This document shows, one piece after another, positions 20,940 to 33,566 of a DNA stretch of 35,775 nucleotides. Numbering within the stretch: position 1 is the first letter of the stretch; every line of letters begins with the position of its first letter. The notes beneath the pieces were generated by a model, which was given only the letters and a program-made list of their open reading frames with translations, ran no database searches and was not told the origin of the DNA. Origin of the DNA: a virus; IMG/VR virus record IMGVR_UViG_3300017763_000066, positions 1 to 35,775 of that record; one strand, written 5' to 3'. A program made the translations under genes and the position numbers.

Positions 20940-22607
20940 TTAGAACTCATCCTTCTCTTCATTAAACTCTAGTGTTGTCTCAGTCATTCTTCCTGTGTCT
21001 GGAGAATACTGAACGTGACAGGCAACTCCTGTATCACCACTAAACCTGTTCTTTAATACACGAACAGTAGTTAAGTTAGAGTCATCACCTTGTTGGTTTC
21101 TTTCAAGAGAGATAACCATGTCCGATAGTTGTGCAATAGCATGGCTACCTCTTAGCTGAGACAAAGATGTTTGTGCACCTTCTTCATGTCCTTTGTTTCC
21201 ATCAGGACGTTTGAGGTGTGATACTAATATCAAACCAACACCTGTCTCTTGTACTAAGGTTCTTAACATAGTCATTGCATTGTCTATCAATCGTCTTTCA
21301 TCACCATCCCCAAGACCAGAAACAACAATACTGAGATGGTCAAGAACAATCCAATCACATTCTGTTCCTTGTGATAGAAAACGTACTCGACTGAGGAGGT
21401 TATCAATAGAAGTGCTACCGTAACTATCGTAGAAAAATACCCTACCATTACCGATACAATTATTGTACGCATCAAGTAACTCAGACTCTTCGGTAGGAAC
21501 ATTACCAAGATGTAAAGGTTTGTTAAGGTGTAGCCCCATAAGTCCAAGAGCAGTTCTCTTAACGGTTTCTTCGAGCATAATAAAACCAACACGTTCTCCC
21601 ATTTTGATAAGGTTGTAACCTATCTCTCTGACAAGAGCACTCTTACCTATACCTGAACCTGCAGTTATAGTTGTAAGTTCTGACTTACGTAAGCCATGTG
21701 TCTTCTCATTGAGTCCAACAAAAGGATAGTCAACAGAGACAACTACATCTTCTTTAGATACGTCACCCCATAGGTCTTCTCCACTTACAATACCATCAGG
21801 TCTAAATGTTTTAGCTGACCATATGGCATCTATAAGTTCTTTGATTCTACCTTCGACTAACATATCGTTAGCATCCTTGAGAGGTAGTTGTGCTATCTTA
21901 GCTTTCCCAGGCTTTAGTACAGATGCACAAGCATGAGCAGCCGATTGTCCTGAATCGTCCATGTCAAACATAAAGATGACACTCTCAAACTTCTCTAACC
22001 ATTCGAGAGACTTTTGTACATCTCGCTTCGCACCTTGCGAACCATTCTTTATGGAGACAACTGCCCATTTATTTCCCTGTGCCTGACTAACACTCATGCA
22101 GTCTAGTTCACCTTCGGTAACGACAACCATCTTGCCACCGTCTCTCCACAGGTGTTGACCAAACAAGCCAACATCTTGTGATGAACCAATCCACTTAAAT
22201 GTCTTATCAGAAAACCTCAACTTCTGTGCTACTATCTTATTGTTATACTTGTAGTTCGCTACCTGACATGGCTTACCCATGTGAGTCGTAACTCGGTAGT
22301 CAAATTTAATACAAGTATCTTTATTTATTGCACGTCTGTTGAGGCTTTTGATTTCACCTTCCGAGAATATTGTTTCTTGTTCTTTATTATCTGTTGCGAG
22401 TACTTTGTGGAAACCAAACTTCTCGCTACTAGATTCCGTTGCTTCCATTTCGTTTCCTTTTTCATAATGACCACACCCAAAGCAGTAACCATGTCCATCA
22501 GAGTAACGTGCCAAGTTATCCTTGGAGTCACATTTAGGACATGGTTCGTGCATAATAAAAATTACATCACTCGTTTGAGTACTCGTCATCTGACCTGTAT
22601 TGTGCAT
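20940..22607 (-). CDS. DNA primase-helicase, T7 gp4-like
   Basis: A 555-residue bifunctional enzyme (T7 gp4A is 566). An N-terminal zinc finger has C23, C26, C42 and C45 (CPKC..CFGC). The TOPRIM primase centre has E165 in VTEGELDC and D215/D217 in FMFDMDDSG. The RecA-like helicase has Walker A GSGIGKS (317-323), the catalytic LEE (346-347), Walker B ending D423 in DWIVLDH, and RGSHAIAQLSD. The acidic C-terminus ends in Phe (EEKDEF), which in T7 contacts the polymerase. GGAG lies 7 bases before the ATG. It overlaps the amidase C-terminus by 41 bases in another frame. Confidence 0.96.
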   Translation of the reverse strand: MHNTGQMTSTQTSDVIFIMHEPCPKCDSKDNLARYSDGHGYCFGCGHYEKGNEMEATESSSEKFGFHKVLATDNKEQETIFSEGEIKSLNRRAINKDTCIKFDYRVTTHMGKPCQVANYKYNNKIVAQKLRFSDKTFKWIGSSQDVGLFGQHLWRDGGKMVVVTEGELDCMSVSQAQGNKWAVVSIKNGSQGAKRDVQKSLEWLEKFESVIFMFDMDDSGQSAAHACASVLKPGKAKIAQLPLKDANDMLVEGRIKELIDAIWSAKTFRPDGIVSGEDLWGDVSKEDVVVSVDYPFVGLNEKTHGLRKSELTTITAGSGIGKSALVREIGYNLIKMGERVGFIMLEETVKRTALGLMGLHLNKPLHLGNVPTEESELLDAYNNCIGNGRVFFYDSYGSTSIDNLLSRVRFLSQGTECDWIVLDHLSIVVSGLGDGDERRLIDNAMTMLRTLVQETGVGLILVSHLKRPDGNKGHEEGAQTSLSQLRGSHAIAQLSDMVISLERNQQGDDSNLTTVRVLKNRFSGDTGVACHVQYSPDTGRMTETTLEFNEEKDEF

Positions 22608-24085: not shown

Positions 24086-26491
24086 TTATGCAAAGAAAAA
24101 GGAACTCTCAAGCACGTGGTCTAAAACAAGATTACCTTTAGTTGGTATTGGTTCTATCTCTTTGTGTCTGTGTTCAGGTAGAACTTCTAAAAGATAATTC
24201 CTAAACTCTTCTAGTACATCCATCTGTGAATACATCTCAACAAATGCAGTACGTAATGCACCCCACATTTCTTCAGCATCTGCAGCATGAGTACCATAGC
24301 TATCATGTACCATTGCAAAAGAATGTATGTCTAACTGCTTGGCAACATGAAGAGTAATCATCAGGTGACTAGCATCAATACTATGTACAAAGTTAGGAGA
24401 GATACCATTAGCCTGTCGGTTCTTATCTAACTTACCTGTCTGTGCATACACTCTAGGTTTAAATACTTTGCCAAGTAACTTGGTTTGTATCTGACTAGAC
24501 TTAACTTCTTGGTATGCCTGTAGCACAGGAAGATTACATGGTGTGTCCCACCTGATAGGTAGTCCTTCTGAAGATGCAACCCTTGCTGCTTTTTGTAACC
24601 ATGCCATAGCATCAGTTGCTGCATGAACAACCTCAGATATAGATTGCCATATCAACTTGGACAAGAAGGTTGCTGCTTTAAATACATCCTCACCGAATGG
24701 ATGTGAGATACCTTTGTCACGTTGCTCAACAATATAATCCATTACAAAATCTGTAAAAGAATATTGCTTACCACCATAAGGCAACACCATACATGGACGT
24801 TTGCAACAAGACCTAGATACACCATACTCAATCCACTTCTGTGCTAAATCATCTGGCATTTCTTTTAGCTTATGTGTAACTGTATCAGCTACCTTCTGAT
24901 AGATGTCTTGTGGGTCATCCATTGGTACAAGATTAACTTCTTTACCTGTAGTCTCTGACCTTAACATTGCTGCAAAATGTTGGAGTCCATTACAACTACC
25001 ATCAGCACAGACAGGAAGACTAGACTCAAAGTTCTCAGGGTCAGCAACAAGACCTTCCCATTCTTTACAGAAAGCTAAGAACTGAAAAGGTTTATCAGAT
25101 TCTTTAGCCCACCATAGGTCAGCCAATGGGTCTTTGGCACAGGATAGTATTCTCTCTTGGTTATCTTGCACCCAATCAATACGTTCTTGCAAAGATGATT
25201 TATCATAACCAAACATATTTGCCCCATGTATAGCTAAGTGACAAGCCCCTTGCTCATTTAATTTTTTTGCCTCAGAAAAAAGCAGTAGTCCTTTGGCAAA
25301 GTCTGTGCCCTGTGGGTTCAGATAGTTTGGTACTGCATAGATACGTCCTCTAAAATCTAACTGATACACCATGTAGATAGCCTTCTCATCTTTGAACTTG
25401 TCAGCTATCTGTATTGTCTTCCTTAACAAGAGTCTCTTTGATGCCATACGATTGTTCTCTGTATGTATGATGACTGCATTTCTTTTCCAATTAATCTTAG
25501 CTTGTTTATTGGTAGCAATATCATGTGGCTTGTTAGGAATTTCTGCGTTCTCTGATGGTGGTAAGCTAGGTAAAGCTATGCCACTATCCCATATGTCCTT
25601 CAGTACCTGTAAGACAAACTGATTGACCTTGAACCCTGTCTGTTGCATGGCATTAACTGCTCCATACACCATAGGCATATCGAAGTGCTTGAGTTCTTGT
25701 AGGTAGTTCTTGTTCTCAGTCTTAACAAGAGGTATCTGACGAACATGATGAGTGTGATAACCACCATCCGTAGGTGTAGTCCAATCTTTAGGTGGAACAA
25801 CACAAGGATAAAACTCAGGTCTGAGTATCTCTTGGAAAGCACTAAGGTCTTTGATTATCTTTAGTGTAGTCTCTGATGCCAACAAGAGTTGTCTTCTCTT
25901 GCCACCCTTCATCATACTCTTCAGTTCTAACAGACCTGTATTGACTATAGTTAAATCAAGTAAGGCATTACCCACCAATAGTTTCTCTCTCTGTGTCCAT
26001 GATGACCACTCTTGACCATCTCTTCTTGATGACTCAATTAACTTACGTCTCTTATAAGTATAGCCTGATGACCTCTTGTCTAGGTCTTTCTTGACTACCT
26101 TATACAGACGAGGATTGTTTTCCTCAAAGGTTCTTATCCTTAACTCATCTTCAATAGCCATACCTAAAGCTACTGCAGAACTACTATAGTCTCTCTTCCT
26201 AGTTATCTGTGATAGTGCCACCCTCAAGGTGATGACTGCTATGACTGATGGCTCTAGGTCATTCAACAAGACTGCTGATGTAGCTGACTTACCTGACCTA
26301 CCCTTCATAGAAGATTCTATATGCTCATTGATAGCTTCTTCTACCTTTAAGACTGTCTGTCTCAAGAGGTATTGACCATAGGTAGTTGTAGATTCTTGGG
26401 CTTTCTCTGCTTTTTGTAGGTTATTCTTGTGGAATCTGTGGATTCCTTCTTCTCGCATTTCACGTTCTAACGATACTTGTCGTGTGTCCAT
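24086..26491 (-). CDS. single-subunit phage RNA polymerase, T7 gp1-like
   Basis: An 801-residue polymerase (T7: 883). Catalytic residues are present: D497 in CADGSCNGLQHF, K564 in CKRPCMVLPYGG with Y572, and D730 in MVHDSYGTHAADA. The C-terminus ends FFFA, like the FAFA foot of T7. It transcribes the middle and late phage genes. The region that would form the promoter specificity loop (about residues 667-690, QIQTKLLGKVFKPRVYAQTG) is shorter and has different residues from T7, so the promoter must differ from the T7 consensus. GGAGAG lies about 5-7 bases before the ATG. It sits directly downstream of the attP site, an arrangement that matters for lysogeny. Confidence 0.97.
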   Translation of the reverse strand: MDTRQVSLEREMREEGIHRFHKNNLQKAEKAQESTTTYGQYLLRQTVLKVEEAINEHIESSMKGRSGKSATSAVLLNDLEPSVIAVITLRVALSQITRKRDYSSSAVALGMAIEDELRIRTFEENNPRLYKVVKKDLDKRSSGYTYKRRKLIESSRRDGQEWSSWTQREKLLVGNALLDLTIVNTGLLELKSMMKGGKRRQLLLASETTLKIIKDLSAFQEILRPEFYPCVVPPKDWTTPTDGGYHTHHVRQIPLVKTENKNYLQELKHFDMPMVYGAVNAMQQTGFKVNQFVLQVLKDIWDSGIALPSLPPSENAEIPNKPHDIATNKQAKINWKRNAVIIHTENNRMASKRLLLRKTIQIADKFKDEKAIYMVYQLDFRGRIYAVPNYLNPQGTDFAKGLLLFSEAKKLNEQGACHLAIHGANMFGYDKSSLQERIDWVQDNQERILSCAKDPLADLWWAKESDKPFQFLAFCKEWEGLVADPENFESSLPVCADGSCNGLQHFAAMLRSETTGKEVNLVPMDDPQDIYQKVADTVTHKLKEMPDDLAQKWIEYGVSRSCCKRPCMVLPYGGKQYSFTDFVMDYIVEQRDKGISHPFGEDVFKAATFLSKLIWQSISEVVHAATDAMAWLQKAARVASSEGLPIRWDTPCNLPVLQAYQEVKSSQIQTKLLGKVFKPRVYAQTGKLDKNRQANGISPNFVHSIDASHLMITLHVAKQLDIHSFAMVHDSYGTHAADAEEMWGALRTAFVEMYSQMDVLEEFRNYLLEVLPEHRHKEIEPIPTKGNLVLDHVLESSFFFA

Positions 26492-26714: not shown

Positions 26715-27746
26715 TCAGCCTGTCATATTGTCCATAAATTTGTCATCAGACTCTAACACTCTACTCGCATCTAAAAGATTTTGCGTATCTAGGTGTGCAT
26801 ATCTTAGAGTCATGTGTATAGACTTATGACCAAGCCATTGTTGTACAACTTGCAGTTGTATTCCTCGCTGAACAAGACGAGATGCACAGGTGTGACGTAA
26901 GCTATGTAAGACAAACTCTTTGTCATCTTGTAAACCCATGTCATCACGTAACCATTCCCATACACGTCTTATCTTGTCTTCTGTAAGATTAAATATAGGT
27001 TTGTTTTTTAGTCTGCCTTCTGTGTCAATACGAGTCTGTAATATATTCTTGACTCGTCTTGTCAACGGAACAGTACGAGGATGTCCGTTCTTAGTTTCCC
27101 AAACAGAAAGAGTTCCTTTGTCTAGGTCAACATCACGACAGGACAAACGTAAGCCCTCTCCTCTACGTAAACCTGTGTCCAACAGGAACAAGAAAAAATC
27201 TCTGCAGTCTGTTTCATTTTTTTCAGTTAACCTCTGAACAAGATAGGCTTCTTCTTCTTGGATTAAATATCTTAGTCTACCATTCTTAGTTGGTATCCAA
27301 TCAAGTTTAGGTTTCCTATCTAACCACCCTCTGTCTACTGCTAGATTTAGTGACTTAGATATACAAGCACTAATCTTGTTGAGTGATGATGCTGATGCAC
27401 CATTCTTTTTGAAGTGTTGGATAACGTCATCAATCAGAGTGGCACTTATGTCTGCAATAGGAACATGACGTCCCATGACATCAAGTATTTTATCTTGTCT
27501 ACGTATCTGAGTTAGACCCCAATCAGAGTCTGACCAATACTTATCTGCAGTTTTACGGAACAAGATTTCTGATGTCATACCTAAGACACAGTTTGCCTCT
27601 GGTAAAGGTAACCCATCTTCAATACATTTCATACAATGCTTCTCAAGTTTGACTGCATCATTCCTAGAGGAACATGACTTGCGAAACACGACACCCTTTT
27701 TACGAATGTCTACTTGCCAAGCATTTGCTATTTTTCTAATTGGCAT
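26715..27746 (-). CDS. int: site-specific tyrosine integrase
   Basis: A 343-residue tyrosine recombinase. The catalytic set is complete: R194 (TGLRRGEGLRL), K219 (TKNGHPRTVPL), H281 and R284 (HSLRHTCASRL), H307 (LGHKSIHMTLRYAHL) and nucleophile Y316. Residues ~1-50 form a short arm-type DNA-binding domain (IRKKGVVFRKS), and ~60-145 the core-binding helical domain. AGGAG lies 7 bases before the ATG. It is the last gene before attP and shares the direction of the early genes, so it could be made early in every infection. It makes this phage capable of lysogeny, unlike T7. Confidence 0.96.
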   Translation of the reverse strand: MPIRKIANAWQVDIRKKGVVFRKSCSSRNDAVKLEKHCMKCIEDGLPLPEANCVLGMTSEILFRKTADKYWSDSDWGLTQIRRQDKILDVMGRHVPIADISATLIDDVIQHFKKNGASASSLNKISACISKSLNLAVDRGWLDRKPKLDWIPTKNGRLRYLIQEEEAYLVQRLTEKNETDCRDFFLFLLDTGLRRGEGLRLSCRDVDLDKGTLSVWETKNGHPRTVPLTRRVKNILQTRIDTEGRLKNKPIFNLTEDKIRRVWEWLRDDMGLQDDKEFVLHSLRHTCASRLVQRGIQLQVVQQWLGHKSIHMTLRYAHLDTQNLLDASRVLESDDKFMDNMTG

Positions 27747-29802: not shown

Positions 29803-29850
29803 GAGGGAACAAGAAAAAAAATTTATCGAGGGAACAAGAAGGGAACAAGA
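29803..29850 (-). repeat. three direct repeats next to the early promoter
   Basis: On the plus strand GAGGGAACAAGAA occurs at 29803-29815 and again, exactly, at 29828-29840; a third shortened copy GGGAACAAGA is at 29841-29850. On the minus strand the repeats (TTCTTGTTCCCTC) lie immediately upstream of the -35 element. Such placement is typical of activator or repressor sites. The spacing is 25 then 11 bases. Confidence 0.7.
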
Positions 29851-29946
29851 TGCAAAATATGTTGAATTTTTGGGAAATTTTAGAATATAGATTATTAACT
29901 TGTTAAATAAAATTCTCGAGCTGAGTTTTTTTAATTAATTTTAGGC
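29851..29946. other. AT-rich spacer between terminator and early control region
   Basis: This stretch, together with 29693-29850, makes a gene-free interval of about 300 bases. Apart from the promoter, palindrome and direct repeats given separately, I see only A/T-rich sequence and a CTCGAG-containing short palindrome near 29923-29933. There is no supported coding frame on either strand. Confidence 0.5.
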
Positions 29947-29982
29947 AATAAAAAAGGGCTAAAGAAATAATCTCTAGCCCTT
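29947..29982 (-). terminator. strong intrinsic terminator between two early gene groups
   Basis: On the minus strand a 12-bp stem (AAGGGCTAGAGA with TCTTTAGCCCTT, one G-T pair) closes a 5-base loop and is followed by TTTT-A-rich sequence. It lies 7 bases after the stop of the 38-residue gene. It should end the transcript of the 31098-29989 gene group before the next promoter. It is one of two clear intrinsic terminators in the window. Confidence 0.9.
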
Positions 29983-29988
29983 AATTTG

Positions 29989-30105
29989 TTAACTTTGACA
30001 GAAAAAAGTAGATAACCAACTATTTAACTCTTTTTCTGTAACATTATAATTATTATTTAAGTCAGTATCTTGAAATAATAACCATAAAATCATCTCATTA
30101 GACAT
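29989..30105 (-). CDS. 38-residue protein before the terminator
   Basis: A short frame begins at the ATG at 30103-30105 with AGGTGG 5 bases upstream and ends 7 bases before the intrinsic terminator. The protein is MSNEMILWLLFQDTDLNNNY followed by NVTEKELNSWLSTFFCQS. It has hydrophobic and polar faces, like a short helical hairpin. It starts 11 bases after the preceding gene. A good ribosome site and clean fit between neighbour and terminator support it. Confidence 0.62.
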   Translation of the reverse strand: MSNEMILWLLFQDTDLNNNYNVTEKELNSWLSTFFCQS

Positions 30106-30116
30106 TTAAACCACCT

Positions 30117-30383
30117 TTAATTATTTAAGTCAGTAAGAATGTAAACACCTTGTTTAATTTTCTTTTCTGTTTCTGGCTTATTCTCATTTAAAAATATATT
30201 TCTATATTTTCCTGTGGTTCTTGAATAATCCCAACTGTCATTATCAAGGTAAATTTTACCTTTGACCCTTTGAGCAATTATTGTGCTGTAACTTTGGAAA
30301 TATTCAACGTCGTTACTAACTGTAATAATAAATTGATTAGCAACTTTGTTACCCTTTGAACTTCTCATATTTGAAACTTTCAT
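30117..30383 (-). CDS. small conserved phage protein (DUF8033-like)
   Basis: I choose the ATG at 30381-30383 (88 residues, beginning MKVSNMRSSKGNKVANQFII) because AGG lies 7 bases upstream; an ATG five codons earlier has no site. The pattern SSKGNKVANQFII, YFQSYSTIIA, LDNDSWDYSRTTGKYRNIFL and KQGVYILTDLN recurs in small early proteins of many unrelated phages; I recall it as DUF8033. It is mostly beta with one helix. The molecular role is unknown. Wide phage distribution suggests a host-interaction or DNA-related task. Confidence 0.78.
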   Translation of the reverse strand: MKVSNMRSSKGNKVANQFIITVSNDVEYFQSYSTIIAQRVKGKIYLDNDSWDYSRTTGKYRNIFLNENKPETEKKIKQGVYILTDLNN

Positions 30384-30412
30384 TTTATAGCCTTTCATAA
30401 GTTAAAATTAAA

Positions 30413-30435
30413 TATTCAAGGTTTTAGAAGGTTAG
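30413..30435. repeat. left arm of a 23-bp perfect inverted repeat
   Basis: This arm (containing ATTCAAGGTTTTAGAAGG) is the exact reverse complement of 31149-31171. The two arms enclose about 710 bases holding two genes and a tiny membrane ORF. The match stops abruptly on both sides. Confidence 0.9.
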
Positions 30436-30457
30436 ACGACTTGAAGCCGTCCAAACC
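30430..30457 (-). promoter_or_regulatory. imperfect hairpin beside the inverted repeat arm
   Basis: GGTT..GACG on one side pairs with CGTC..AACC on the other, with a small bulge and a 9-base loop region. On the minus strand CTTCTAAAACC follows, so there is no T-tract. It sits at the inner edge of the 23-bp repeat arm and may be a processing or stability structure. Confidence 0.45.
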
Positions 30458-30471
30458 CTTTTAAAATGTAT

Positions 30472-30543
30472 TTAAGCTATGATTAGAATAAACCCAATAA
30501 AGCTAATTAATAATATAGTTTCTAATAATGCTCTAATAATCAT
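30472..30543 (-). CDS. 23-residue hydrophobic single-TM peptide (tentative)
   Basis: ATG at 30541-30543 starts one base after the preceding stop, with AGG 8 bases upstream. The peptide MIIRALLETILLISFIGFIL plus IIA is almost wholly hydrophobic, with R4 and E8 near the start, as in a single membrane helix. Very short membrane peptides occur in phage early regions and may alter envelope proteins. AT-rich DNA yields such frames by chance, so it is tentative. Confidence 0.4.
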   Translation of the reverse strand: MIIRALLETILLISFIGFILIIA

Positions 30544-30544
30544 A

Positions 30545-30775
30545 TTAAAACCTACTATCAACAAAACGATTTAAACCCCTTTTATTAAGAATGTATTCAA
30601 AAGCTATATCATAGCCTTTATTACCAAATACACTTTTAACAATGTTACAAATCTGCTCAGTACTAAAGCCATCATCAATTTTTTTGGCTTCTCTGATTAA
30701 ATCATCAACATAAGTTTTAACGTCAATGATTTCATTTGCTCCATCTTGGATTTTATTTGCTCTTTCATTTATCAT
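30545..30775 (-). CDS. small hypothetical protein inside the inverted-repeat module
   Basis: A 76-residue mixed-charge helical protein (MINERANKIQDGANEIIDVKTYVDDLIREAKKIDDGFSTEQICNIVKSVFGNKGYD..). The repeated amphipathic helices resemble small regulatory or coiled-coil proteins. Its ATG overlaps the stop of the upstream gene. No family is recognised. It lies within the segment bracketed by the 23-bp inverted repeat. Confidence 0.62.
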   Translation of the reverse strand: MINERANKIQDGANEIIDVKTYVDDLIREAKKIDDGFSTEQICNIVKSVFGNKGYDIAFEYILNKRGLNRFVDSRF

Positions 30776-31098
30776 TATATTAACCCTTCATTATCACTCA
30801 AAATATCAAAATGTTTTTTATTAGCAAAAACTTTAAGATTTTTATCAAGTGCCATTGTTGGTTTAGAAGGGCAAAAAGTCCTATTTCCTGCATTAGCTAG
30901 AAAATAATATTTGGATTTATAGCCATAATGGAAACCTAGTGATTGTTTACCTCGACTAAATCCAAACCTTTTTGTTTGTTGTCTTCTTGTTTTTGGTTTA
31001 GTCCATTTATCTAATAGACGATAACCAACACCAACAAAAGGCATTTTAGGATGTAAAGTTAATATTTGAAGAAATGATATTTTATTATTGTTTTCCAT
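30775..31098 (-). CDS. basic hypothetical protein inside the inverted-repeat module
   Basis: The ATG at 31096-31098 gives 107 residues (MENNNKISFLQILTLHPKMP..); the frame extends to a TTG at 31140, but that region forms a hairpin. It is very basic in the middle (KWTKPKTRRQQTKRFGFSRGKQS, about residues 33-55), with aromatic-rich strands after it (LGFHYGYKSKYYFLANAG), so nucleic acid binding is likely. The ribosome site is weak. No family is recognised. It is the first gene after the long gene-free region. Confidence 0.6.
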   Translation of the reverse strand: MENNNKISFLQILTLHPKMPFVGVGYRLLDKWTKPKTRRQQTKRFGFSRGKQSLGFHYGYKSKYYFLANAGNRTFCPSKPTMALDKNLKVFANKKHFDILSDNEGLI

Positions 31099-31119
31099 AG
31101 TTTTAGACTTTCTAAAATA

Positions 31120-31137
31120 CTTAACATTATTGTTAAG
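31120..31137 (-). promoter_or_regulatory. 7-bp perfect hairpin in the leader of the basic-protein gene
   Basis: CTTAACA and TGTTAAG (31120-31126 and 31131-31137) enclose a 4-base loop, 22 bases upstream of the chosen ATG. A second small hairpin GGTTA-TTGC-TAACC lies next to it at 31141-31154 and overlaps the inverted repeat arm. Together they form a structured leader. Confidence 0.55.
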
Positions 31138-31148
31138 CAAGGTTATTG

Positions 31149-31171
31149 CTAACCTTCTAAAACCTTGAATA
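31149..31171. repeat. right arm of the 23-bp perfect inverted repeat
   Basis: Exact reverse complement of 30413-30435 (this arm contains CCTTCTAAAACCTTGAAT). In a minus-strand transcript the two arms would pair and close a loop of about 710 nucleotides. Confidence 0.9.
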
Positions 31172-31400
31172 AATCACCAACAATGAGAAACAGACAGACT
31201 TTTAATTTAATCTGATAATTTTAAGATAATCATTAATAAGTAAATTACAAGTATTAAATGTAATAAAGTTTTCTTTAAGTTTATTAATTAGAAAAAAATA
31301 AAAGATAACCATTAATAATAGTAATTGGCTATTTAATCCCATGATAAAGCAATCATTCCTTAATATTTAATGGAATAATAAACAATTTATTTAGACAATC

Positions 31401-31440
31401 TTAAAGGATGCCTTCTTTTTTTAAGGATTTTTTAAGGATG
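31401..31440. repeat. three short AAGGAT repeats with T/A tracts
   Basis: TTAAAGGATG (31401-31410), TTAAGGAT (31421-31428) and TTAAGGATG (31432-31440) are separated by T-rich tracts. On the minus strand they read as ATCCTTAA units. Together with the neighbouring CTAAAG units they resemble the short repeat arrays beside T7 genome ends. Confidence 0.6.
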
Positions 31441-31522
31441 GTATGGGGTAAATTGGCAGCAGGACACTCGTATAAGCCCCTCAGATTTTTTTAGTAAAAC
31501 TAAAGGCTCATTTCTAGCCTCA

Positions 31523-31653: not shown

Positions 31654-33315
31654 TTATGGTCTATCTCTACCTTCATACAGGTTAGTCCAGTTGTCTGTAT
31701 TACCTTTCTTACCCATAGCTGCTTCCATGAATCTGTCTAACTCTTCTTCTAACAGTTCGTTCTTATGGTCTTGTACAGCCATGTCTATGTCTCTATCCAT
31801 AGTTTCAATCCAGTAAGCTACAGCTATACTTAAAGCATCTAACCTATCGTCATGTATAAGTGCACCTCTGTCACGTGTAAGTCTGGTAAGTTGATAGAAA
31901 AGTTTATACTTTAGTTCTGTCTCAGAGTTGTAGTCATCAAGTATTACCCTCTCATCTACTACAAGCCTGTGTTGATTGAGCATAGGTTCTAATGTATCAA
32001 TGATACGTTTCTCTTTTTGAACATTGTGTCTAACTTCTTCTATACTTACAGGATGCTTCTTAGCTAAAACAGGCTTTAATAATTGCGTAAACATTCCGTC
32101 TCCGAAGTTGCTTTCTACAATTATTTTGTTGACGTTCTGCGACTTGGCTACGTGAGTCAAGACTGCCAGAGAATCCTCTTGATAACCATTCTTCGTCCCA
32201 CCACAGGCTGTCAGATATAGTTGACCTTTCATCATCTTGACTACTGCGTAAGCTGTTTCGTCCTTTCCTCGTCCTGCAGGGTCTATGCTCATCACACTTC
32301 CGTCCCAGACAGCAGTCTCTGGGGATATCGTCATAGGATTGCACCAATAGTCTCCTTTTAATCCAATGTTAGGTAAATGCTTACATCCATCTAGTTGTTC
32401 TTTGCCTGATGCCCATTGTAGTTTTACTGGGGCTTCAGACCATGTAGAACAGCCAGACATAACCATAAGGTCATTTAGCTTTAGAGGATACTTATTGGCA
32501 TCAGAGAGGCTTACATCAAGCATAAACTGTAATGCAAATCCTGACTTACCATAAGATGCTTCTCGTTCTAGTAGGTCATCATCATCAAATCTTAATGGGT
32601 CTGTAGGTTTTCCTTCGTGTCCTTCTTTATCAGCAATGACAGGTGCTAGTTTTCTACCCATAGCTACCTTTAGTCGGTCATCAGGAAACCTAGAAGTCCA
32701 TATTCTAGTTTTATATCCACGTTCATCTAGTAAGTTATAGATGGACATTTCTGTTTGTGGTGTACCTAAGAACACAATACGTCCTTTAGGTTTTATAATA
32801 GCTTCAAATTCTTTAATAGTTTCTGCTAACTTGTCTCTCATCATTTGTGTCATAGAGTTGTTAGCTGACTCAACGTCATCTGCAATAATTAAATCAGCAC
32901 GACTTCCTGTTAACTGTCCAGTTACCCCTAGAGACTTCACAGACGGTGCGTGAGAGGCTTTAGCAGGTGCGACATCAAATGATATCTTAGACATTCTTTG
33001 TCCATCCTTGGGTCTTAAATGGGCAAGAAGAGGCATCTCATGTATTAACCTTAATGTAAAGGTACTAAAGTCATCTGCTCTAGTCTTTGATGCTGACACC
33101 ACAAGTATATTCATTTGTGGATTTAGAAATAATTGGTGACAAACATAAGCAGATGTAATCCACGACTTTCCTACACCTCGAAATGCTTCTATGACTTCAC
33201 GTCTTTCGTTGGTGTTCTGTAGATAATCTGCTATGTCGTACTGTATTGGTGTTGGGTCTGGTAGGTTTAGATGCTTCCATGCCATATACAGGAAGTTCTT
33301 AAAATCTTTTACCAT
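31654..33315 (-). CDS. terminase large subunit, T7 gp19-like
   Basis: A 553-residue packaging motor and nuclease (T7 gp19 is 586). The ATPase has Walker A AFRGVGKSW (about residues 43-51), the Walker B segment LIIADDVES (about 147-155) and a coupling LGTPQTE motif. The RNase H-like nuclease has SIDPAGRGKDETA (about 343-355), VESNFGDG and DDRLDALSIA near the end. I choose the ATG at 33313-33315 (GGAG 9 bases upstream); an in-frame ATT five codons earlier is not a likely start. The ATG overlaps the stop of the upstream basic protein by 7 bases. It cuts concatemers and drives DNA through the portal. Confidence 0.96.
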   Translation of the reverse strand: MVKDFKNFLYMAWKHLNLPDPTPIQYDIADYLQNTNERREVIEAFRGVGKSWITSAYVCHQLFLNPQMNILVVSASKTRADDFSTFTLRLIHEMPLLAHLRPKDGQRMSKISFDVAPAKASHAPSVKSLGVTGQLTGSRADLIIADDVESANNSMTQMMRDKLAETIKEFEAIIKPKGRIVFLGTPQTEMSIYNLLDERGYKTRIWTSRFPDDRLKVAMGRKLAPVIADKEGHEGKPTDPLRFDDDDLLEREASYGKSGFALQFMLDVSLSDANKYPLKLNDLMVMSGCSTWSEAPVKLQWASGKEQLDGCKHLPNIGLKGDYWCNPMTISPETAVWDGSVMSIDPAGRGKDETAYAVVKMMKGQLYLTACGGTKNGYQEDSLAVLTHVAKSQNVNKIIVESNFGDGMFTQLLKPVLAKKHPVSIEEVRHNVQKEKRIIDTLEPMLNQHRLVVDERVILDDYNSETELKYKLFYQLTRLTRDRGALIHDDRLDALSIAVAYWIETMDRDIDMAVQDHKNELLEEELDRFMEAAMGKKGNTDNWTNLYEGRDRP

Positions 33316-33566
33316 GCTTTGCAACTCCAATAACGTGCTGATGTTTTATCTTTGGCTGTAGAGCAGTTGTGTCTAGCACGAAAACTTTTTCTGTTAGAAG
33401 GTTGATTCTTTTTGATGCTCATATTAGGGTCACCAAACATAACCTTCTTAACTTTACCGTTGTTCATTACGTAGACTTTAGATTTCTTTCTACCGTAACC
33501 TGCTTCACCTTTGCCTATCCTAGATGGTTTACCTATGGATACACTTGCTCCTCCATATGTAGCCAT
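33309..33566 (-). CDS. small basic protein upstream of terminase (marine-phage type)
   Basis: An 85-residue strongly basic protein with a conserved-looking end: KKVMFGDPNMSIKKNQPSNRKSFRARHNCSTAKDKTSARYWSCKAW. The FRARHNC..ARYWSCKAW signature recurs in both T4-like and T7-like marine phages. Two cysteines and a histidine could bind zinc. The high charge suggests DNA binding, perhaps in packaging, given the overlap with the large terminase gene. The ribosome site is weak. No function is established as far as I know. Confidence 0.78.
   Translation of the reverse strand: MATYGGASVSIGKPSRIGKGEAGYGRKKSKVYVMNNGKVKKVMFGDPNMSIKKNQPSNRKSFRARHNCSTAKDKTSARYWSCKAW

Follow-up and report, generated by a model that had tools for sequence, protein, structure and literature searches.

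Inverted-repeat arms around early genes of uncultured marine T7-like phages probably close their messenger RNA into a loop

In bacterial messenger RNA (mRNA), long pairing between the 5' and the 3' part has been described for a few individual cases, such as hok and icaR. Double-stranded RNA of another kind is found in the early mRNA of phage T7, whose ribonuclease III (RNase III) sites are local hairpins between genes. Here we describe an inverted repeat in the IMG/VR virus record IMGVR_UViG_3300017763_000066, analysed over positions 1 to 35,775 (hereafter the window). This is a T7-like, pelagiphage-like genome, in which the two arms of the repeat bracket three small genes, designated A, B and C, just downstream of the terminase gene (31654-33330, minus strand). 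Folding of their mRNA probably gives a closed loop, by which these genes, probably the first early genes of the phage, would be controlled or protected. The pairing itself appears well supported by the sequences compared; its role we infer.

The fold-back of the hok mRNA (hok/sok, plasmid R1) resembles the phage locus in having a tiny hydrophobic peptide gene, here gene C, but the phage bracket contains one to three genes, and its arms of 19-31 nucleotides (nt) covary between phages. In icaR of Staphylococcus aureus, the partner of the 5' leader is a 3' sequence >800 nt away; their duplex blocks translation and is cleaved by RNase III, and the pairing is that of a 7-nt UCCCCUG motif with the Shine-Dalgarno sequence itself (PMC3868564). 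The phage locus has the same distant 5'-3' pairing, known here from sequence and prediction, whereas its arms are long, the adjoining hairpins are conserved, and the 3' arm pairs with an arm predicted to mask the start, not with the start. With the T7 sites it would have in common that double-stranded RNA shapes the early transcripts of a T7-like phage, but the helix considered here would close over a gene segment hundreds of nucleotides long.

Distant 5' and 3' segments, transcribed in one direction, are complementary in these phages and their pairing is conserved, as is characteristic of long-range 5'-3' paired mRNA. A conserved phage version of such an mRNA, with new genes and in the form of a phage operon, appears to be new: a narrow literature search found no description of this phage element and no paper joining pelagiphages with inverted repeats. 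The 5'-3' pairing is here a conserved and covarying feature of uncultured marine T7-like phages close to pelagiphages and roseophages, and it recurs in several of their clades. For viruses that infect very abundant bacteria of the ocean, it offers a point of RNA control that can be tested, together with a new family of small proteins whose fold is unknown.

The inverted repeat and its recurrence in relatives

The 5' arm (arm1, TATTCAAGGTTTTAGAAGGTTAG, 31149-31171, minus strand) is part of the gene A leader; the 3' arm (arm2, 30413-30435, minus strand) comes just after gene C. They form a perfect inverted repeat of 23 nt with 100% complementarity and a 713 nt spacer, in agreement with the original prediction, made from the window sequence alone, of exact 23-base arms about 710 bases apart. 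The smaller hairpins which it placed at both inner edges were confirmed as well: AAGGTTA-GCAA-TAACCTT on the 5' side (H1, 31139-31156, the 5' strand of which is common with arm1) and AAGGGTTTGGACGGC-TTCAA-GTCGTCTAACCTT on the 3' side (30428-30460, overlapping the start of arm2). The proposed two-gene module does enclose genes, but these are three in number, all on the minus strand.

Chance had been considered very unlikely, and the statistics agree. The 1.8 kilobases (kb) after the terminase gave a pairing score of 33.2, against a maximum of 22.4 in 100 dinucleotide shuffles (mean 18.4, standard deviation 1.6) and 23.8 for the highest-scoring tile elsewhere in the 35.8-kb window. No third copy of the arm was found in the window with up to 3 mismatches allowed, where 0 matches are expected. 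With the shuffle controls far below the observed score, and with the bracket recurring in independent contigs with other arm sequences, the probability of a chance repeat or an assembly artefact is negligible.

Relatives were collected as loci fetched by the window terminase, which were scanned 3' of the terminase, and as a second set found by gene A alone. The scan of the terminase-fetched loci showed inverted repeats of ~15-32 nt, differing in sequence, at the corresponding position; their arms enclose gene A. The loci L101, L106-L116, L161, L169, L171 and L173, found by gene A, all have arms too, which is, as far as sequence comparison goes, an independent prediction borne out. Arms were identified in 33 contigs besides the window and comprise about a dozen distinguishable sequences, ~six of which are mutually unrelated. 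Terminase-fetched loci without gene A have no comparable arms, with the exceptions of a different hairpin pair (L044-L051) and a non-coding repeat in phage HTVC168P.

The original prediction left open whether the arms are the ends of a small mobile or invertible module or pair in RNA to give a looped transcript. If the arms were terminal inverted repeats of a small DNA element, mobile or invertible, this would account for exact arms flanking a gene cassette, and also for some related phages that lack the cassette and have other genes at that place. However, gene A has the same orientation between the arms in every arm-bearing locus, so that the suggested comparison of relatives revealed no inversion and an invertible segment was rejected. 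Furthermore, the position on the terminase side is constant in the terminase-fetched loci, there is no transposase among the genes and no target-site duplication was seen. The window and its relative L047 are 99-100% identical in terminase DNA and diverge in a tract from ~31.5 to 29.9 kb (29880-31500), which extends past both arms; inside the tract the identity is 28-86%, with 86% in the tile of arm1 and leader and 50-54% in gene A. As this exchange is not delimited by the arms and no target-site duplication was seen, the mobile element was also rejected, and we regard this part of the prediction as unsupported and DNA of either kind as very improbable. Judging from these alignments, recombination seems to have swapped the module together with the adjoining DNA, and the arms do not seem to have moved it. 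The gene following arm2 differs, belonging to the phrog_21575 family in the window and coding for a longer protein of 202-226 amino acids (aa) in close relatives.

Pairing of the arms

The comparison points to the arms as strands of a long-range RNA helix that closes the early transcript, and not as mobile or invertible DNA, because the arms covary, their mismatches on the coding strand favour G-U, and the adjoining hairpins carry compensated changes. The same three features support the looped transcript named in the original prediction. Independent variation of the arms, which it had listed as the sign of an error, was looked for among the relatives, in which the arms change together and nearly always keep the ability to pair.

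The predicted duplex energy of arm1 with its own arm2 is -29 to -50 kcal/mol, and with arms of unrelated clades ~-5 to -18 kcal/mol; taken alone, this difference would also be compatible with a pair of DNA sites that one protein recognises. Within clades, double changes in the arms were found in L013 (A-U to G-C), L110 and L116. Among the transition mismatches of the arms, read on the coding strand, 14 are G-U and 3 are A-C (symmetric scoring, p 0.013), a ratio that includes inherited changes and becomes ~10:3 when independent events are counted by eye. Compensatory changes are present in the hairpins at both inner edges, and two G-U pairs of the 3' hairpin are fixed in 6/6 sequences. Hairpin H2 (GCTTAACAATAATGTTAAGT, 31119-31138) likewise shows compensatory changes among relatives; its covariation is under-counted, because MAFFT does not align H2 of L009/L011 correctly with that of the other sequences.

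For six pelagiphage-like sequences the covariation score is 0.140, reached by 0 of 500 shuffles, and sliding the partner leaves at most 0.044; the structure under test was derived from the same alignment, and the slide control is therefore biased towards that structure. RNAalifold yields the long-range helix when fed with the joined ends alone, and gives little covariation support for the GC-richer leaders, which align poorly. The 775-nt RNA of the window has a folding z of -6.65 versus 20 shuffles. At distant gene A loci, the gapped duplex search chains unrelated helices. No Rfam family matched the window, the only sequence searched, above its gathering score.

Arm pairs that covary between clades would also fit two opposed DNA sites for one phage protein (a repressor, integrase, terminase or replication factor), varying with the specificity of that protein, and an integrase gene is indeed present in the window. 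Such sites, however, give no reason to expect a coding-strand G-U bias, compensated hairpins with fixed G-U pairs, or the complementarity of arm1 to the bases preceding the start codon of gene A that is described below. In the loci of L077 type, too, there are two-copy, fixed-spacing sites on either side of gene A. Altogether, DNA sites are in our opinion an improbable explanation of the arms.

Arm1 and the start of gene A

Gene A most likely starts with the ATG at 31098 (MENNNK...), which is a conserved start, and not with the TTG at 31140, inside the structured leader, where the 121-aa open reading frame (ORF) of the original prediction begins. From the start of arm1 to this start codon there are 73 nt. 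Directly 5' of the codon is a small hairpin, H3 (TTTTAGA-AAG-TCTAAAA, 31101-31117), and the pre-start segment TCTAAAACT (31099-31107) can pair with 31156-31164 of arm1, forming a helix designated P1. Folded on its own, the leader is predicted at each locus to be branched or extended, with part of arm1 paired with downstream leader bases. In most loci these predicted partner bases reach the start codon of gene A or end 1 nt short of it; L041 and L077 differ. The gene A leader of L041 is ~99 nt longer than that of L043, and the extra part is predicted as a long stem.

Arm1 pairs with its own pre-start segment at a mean of -11.9 kcal/mol, and with those of other clades at -6.9 kcal/mol. When arm2 is present, the predicted arm1-start pairing amounts to 0.0-0.2 base pairs (bp) in 16/16 loci; when it is absent, 4-11 bp are predicted in 14/16. 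These foldings suggest a switch, in which pairing of arm1 with the pre-start bases competes with arm2. The predicted accessibility of the gene A start rises clearly with arm2 in ~8/16 loci, for example from 0.23 to 0.51 in L021. Competition for arm1 thus has the backing of prediction and comparison, an effect on translation only in part.

We propose that arm1, upstream of gene A in its leader, and arm2, past gene C, would form one long-range helix in the early transcript. During transcription, arm1 would first find partners nearby, among them the bases directly next to the start codon of gene A, which would give a compact leader. Once transcribed, arm2 would capture arm1 through pairing over ~19-31 nt; by this capture the A-B-C mRNA would become a closed loop, its ends paired, and arm1 would be taken off the start region. 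The outcome would be a timed post-transcriptional control of the first early genes, via exposure of the start site and/or via a closed, protected mRNA. An RNA helix of the arms with such timed control of A-B-C, by start exposure and/or mRNA protection, is the reading towards which we lean, with slightly better than even confidence. Its stricter form, a previously undescribed phage element in which the 3' arm captures the 5' arm of a metastable branched leader and gene A is made only from the complete, end-closed mRNA, is put forward tentatively and is rather doubtful.

Several observations weigh against the timed-control reading, in addition to the smaller number of independent G-U events given above. 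Single-locus shuffle tests of the arm1-start pairing gave 3 to 97 of 300, so that support is weak in single loci such as L023 (97/300). For the window and the phages closest to it, arm2 brings no clear rise in the predicted accessibility of the start; in the window the unpaired fraction goes from 0.40 to 0.30, because its pre-start bases are predicted to re-pair in H3. No such arms were found at distant gene A homologues (L137, L146, L151, L157, L168, L175, L142 and others); therefore gene A does not require the arms. Finally, examination of the motif upstream of arm1 identified no promoter for an A-B-C transcript. This conserved motif, TTTGACATTGT / TCTCATTGTTGGTGA, occurs once per locus where found and was rejected as a promoter, no fitting -10 box having been seen.

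Duplexes of 19-31 nt suit RNase III, which cuts precursors of ribosomal RNA and the early mRNA of T7. The arm helix could form and yet serve RNA processing, if the host RNase III cut it and the A-B-C mRNA were released or stabilised with no translational switch. The arms have the appropriate length of ~two helical turns, flank whole genes and, in the window, are not predicted to free the start of gene A; arm2 is located just before the next gene, which begins 14 nt past it at 30398, and no terminator was found there. The 5'-3' duplex of icaR, moreover, is cut by RNase III (PMC3868564). Processing would nevertheless leave unexplained why arm1 pairs better with its own pre-start bases than across clades, and we consider it unlikely as the sole role of the helix, although it deserves serious weight.

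The bracketed genes and their surroundings

Gene A (30775-31098) encodes a basic protein of 107 aa that represents a new family, gene B (30545-30775) a protein of 76 aa, and gene C (30472-30543) a hydrophobic (membrane) peptide of 23 aa, MIIRALLETILLISFIGFILIIA. Pairwise ratios of non-synonymous to synonymous substitution rates (dN/dS) among the pelagiphage-like members are 0.07-0.73 for gene A, 0.13-0.34 for gene B and 0.05-0.25 for gene C; because of these values the three ORFs are, on comparative grounds, real genes under purifying selection. For gene A, the ratios are 0.36-0.73 against the window and 0.07-0.28 among the others, and all higher values involve the window gene, which is 55-59% identical to the other pelagiphage-like ones.

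Nine residues are invariant across 14 aligned members of the gene A family. Searches of Pfam and PHROGs gave nothing significant for gene A or gene B, tblastn with gene A against 50,697 phage records (INPHARED) gave no match, and no relative was found in GTDB genomes. The AlphaFold model of gene A is of low confidence (predicted local distance difference test 56, predicted template modelling score 0.30). Gene C is conserved as a 23-aa hydrophobic peptide; the short brackets of L077 type, with ~290 nt between the arms, appear to contain gene A alone. To judge from its homologues, the gene A family is wider than this phage group. Distant homologues (L142, L148, L153, L164, L172 and similar loci) have a GFHFGKRSxY-like motif and are located, with no arms, in other viral contigs of up to 60 kb.

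Past the bracket, the minus strand of the window continues with small genes, followed by the genes for a tyrosine integrase (26715-27746), for an RNA polymerase (24086-26491) and for a primase/helicase (20940-22607). Its closest cultured phages are pelagiphages, and HTVC019P has the same gene order. LUZ100 and the cultured pelagiphages and roseophages (Autographiviridae) resemble the window in the succession of terminase, junction, small early genes and RNA polymerase, several of them with an integrase, but the cultured phages examined do not have the gene A bracket. Directly after its terminase, LUZ100 carries the terminal repeat and its first host promoters (PMC10134795). From the terminase-adjacent layout in HTVC019P and LUZ100, genes A, B and C are therefore probably the first early genes, an assignment made by analogy.

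Some further repeats and conserved sites were noted in this part of the genomes. After the terminase of L044, L045, L046 and L051, a similar hairpin pair (GTACACTCTGGTACACTC.. and ..GAGTGTGCTAGGGTGTAC) surrounds differing cargo ORFs. HTVC168P (L087:39012-39304) and Eistla EXVC025P (L117:631-992), both cultured pelagiphages without gene A, have in common a different inverted repeat of 18-21 bp, TATCTTATACGGGTACCT / AGGTTCCCGTATAAGATA, the copies of which lie ~250-330 nt apart in non-coding DNA between the lysozyme gene and the first early gene. In the window, the region around CTGAGGGGCTTATACG (31462-31494) is conserved ~160-200 nt past the terminase stop in the closest relatives and is possibly part of the genome-end region. 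On the other side of the bracket, at 29803-29851, GAGGGAACAAGA(A) is present in three direct copies.
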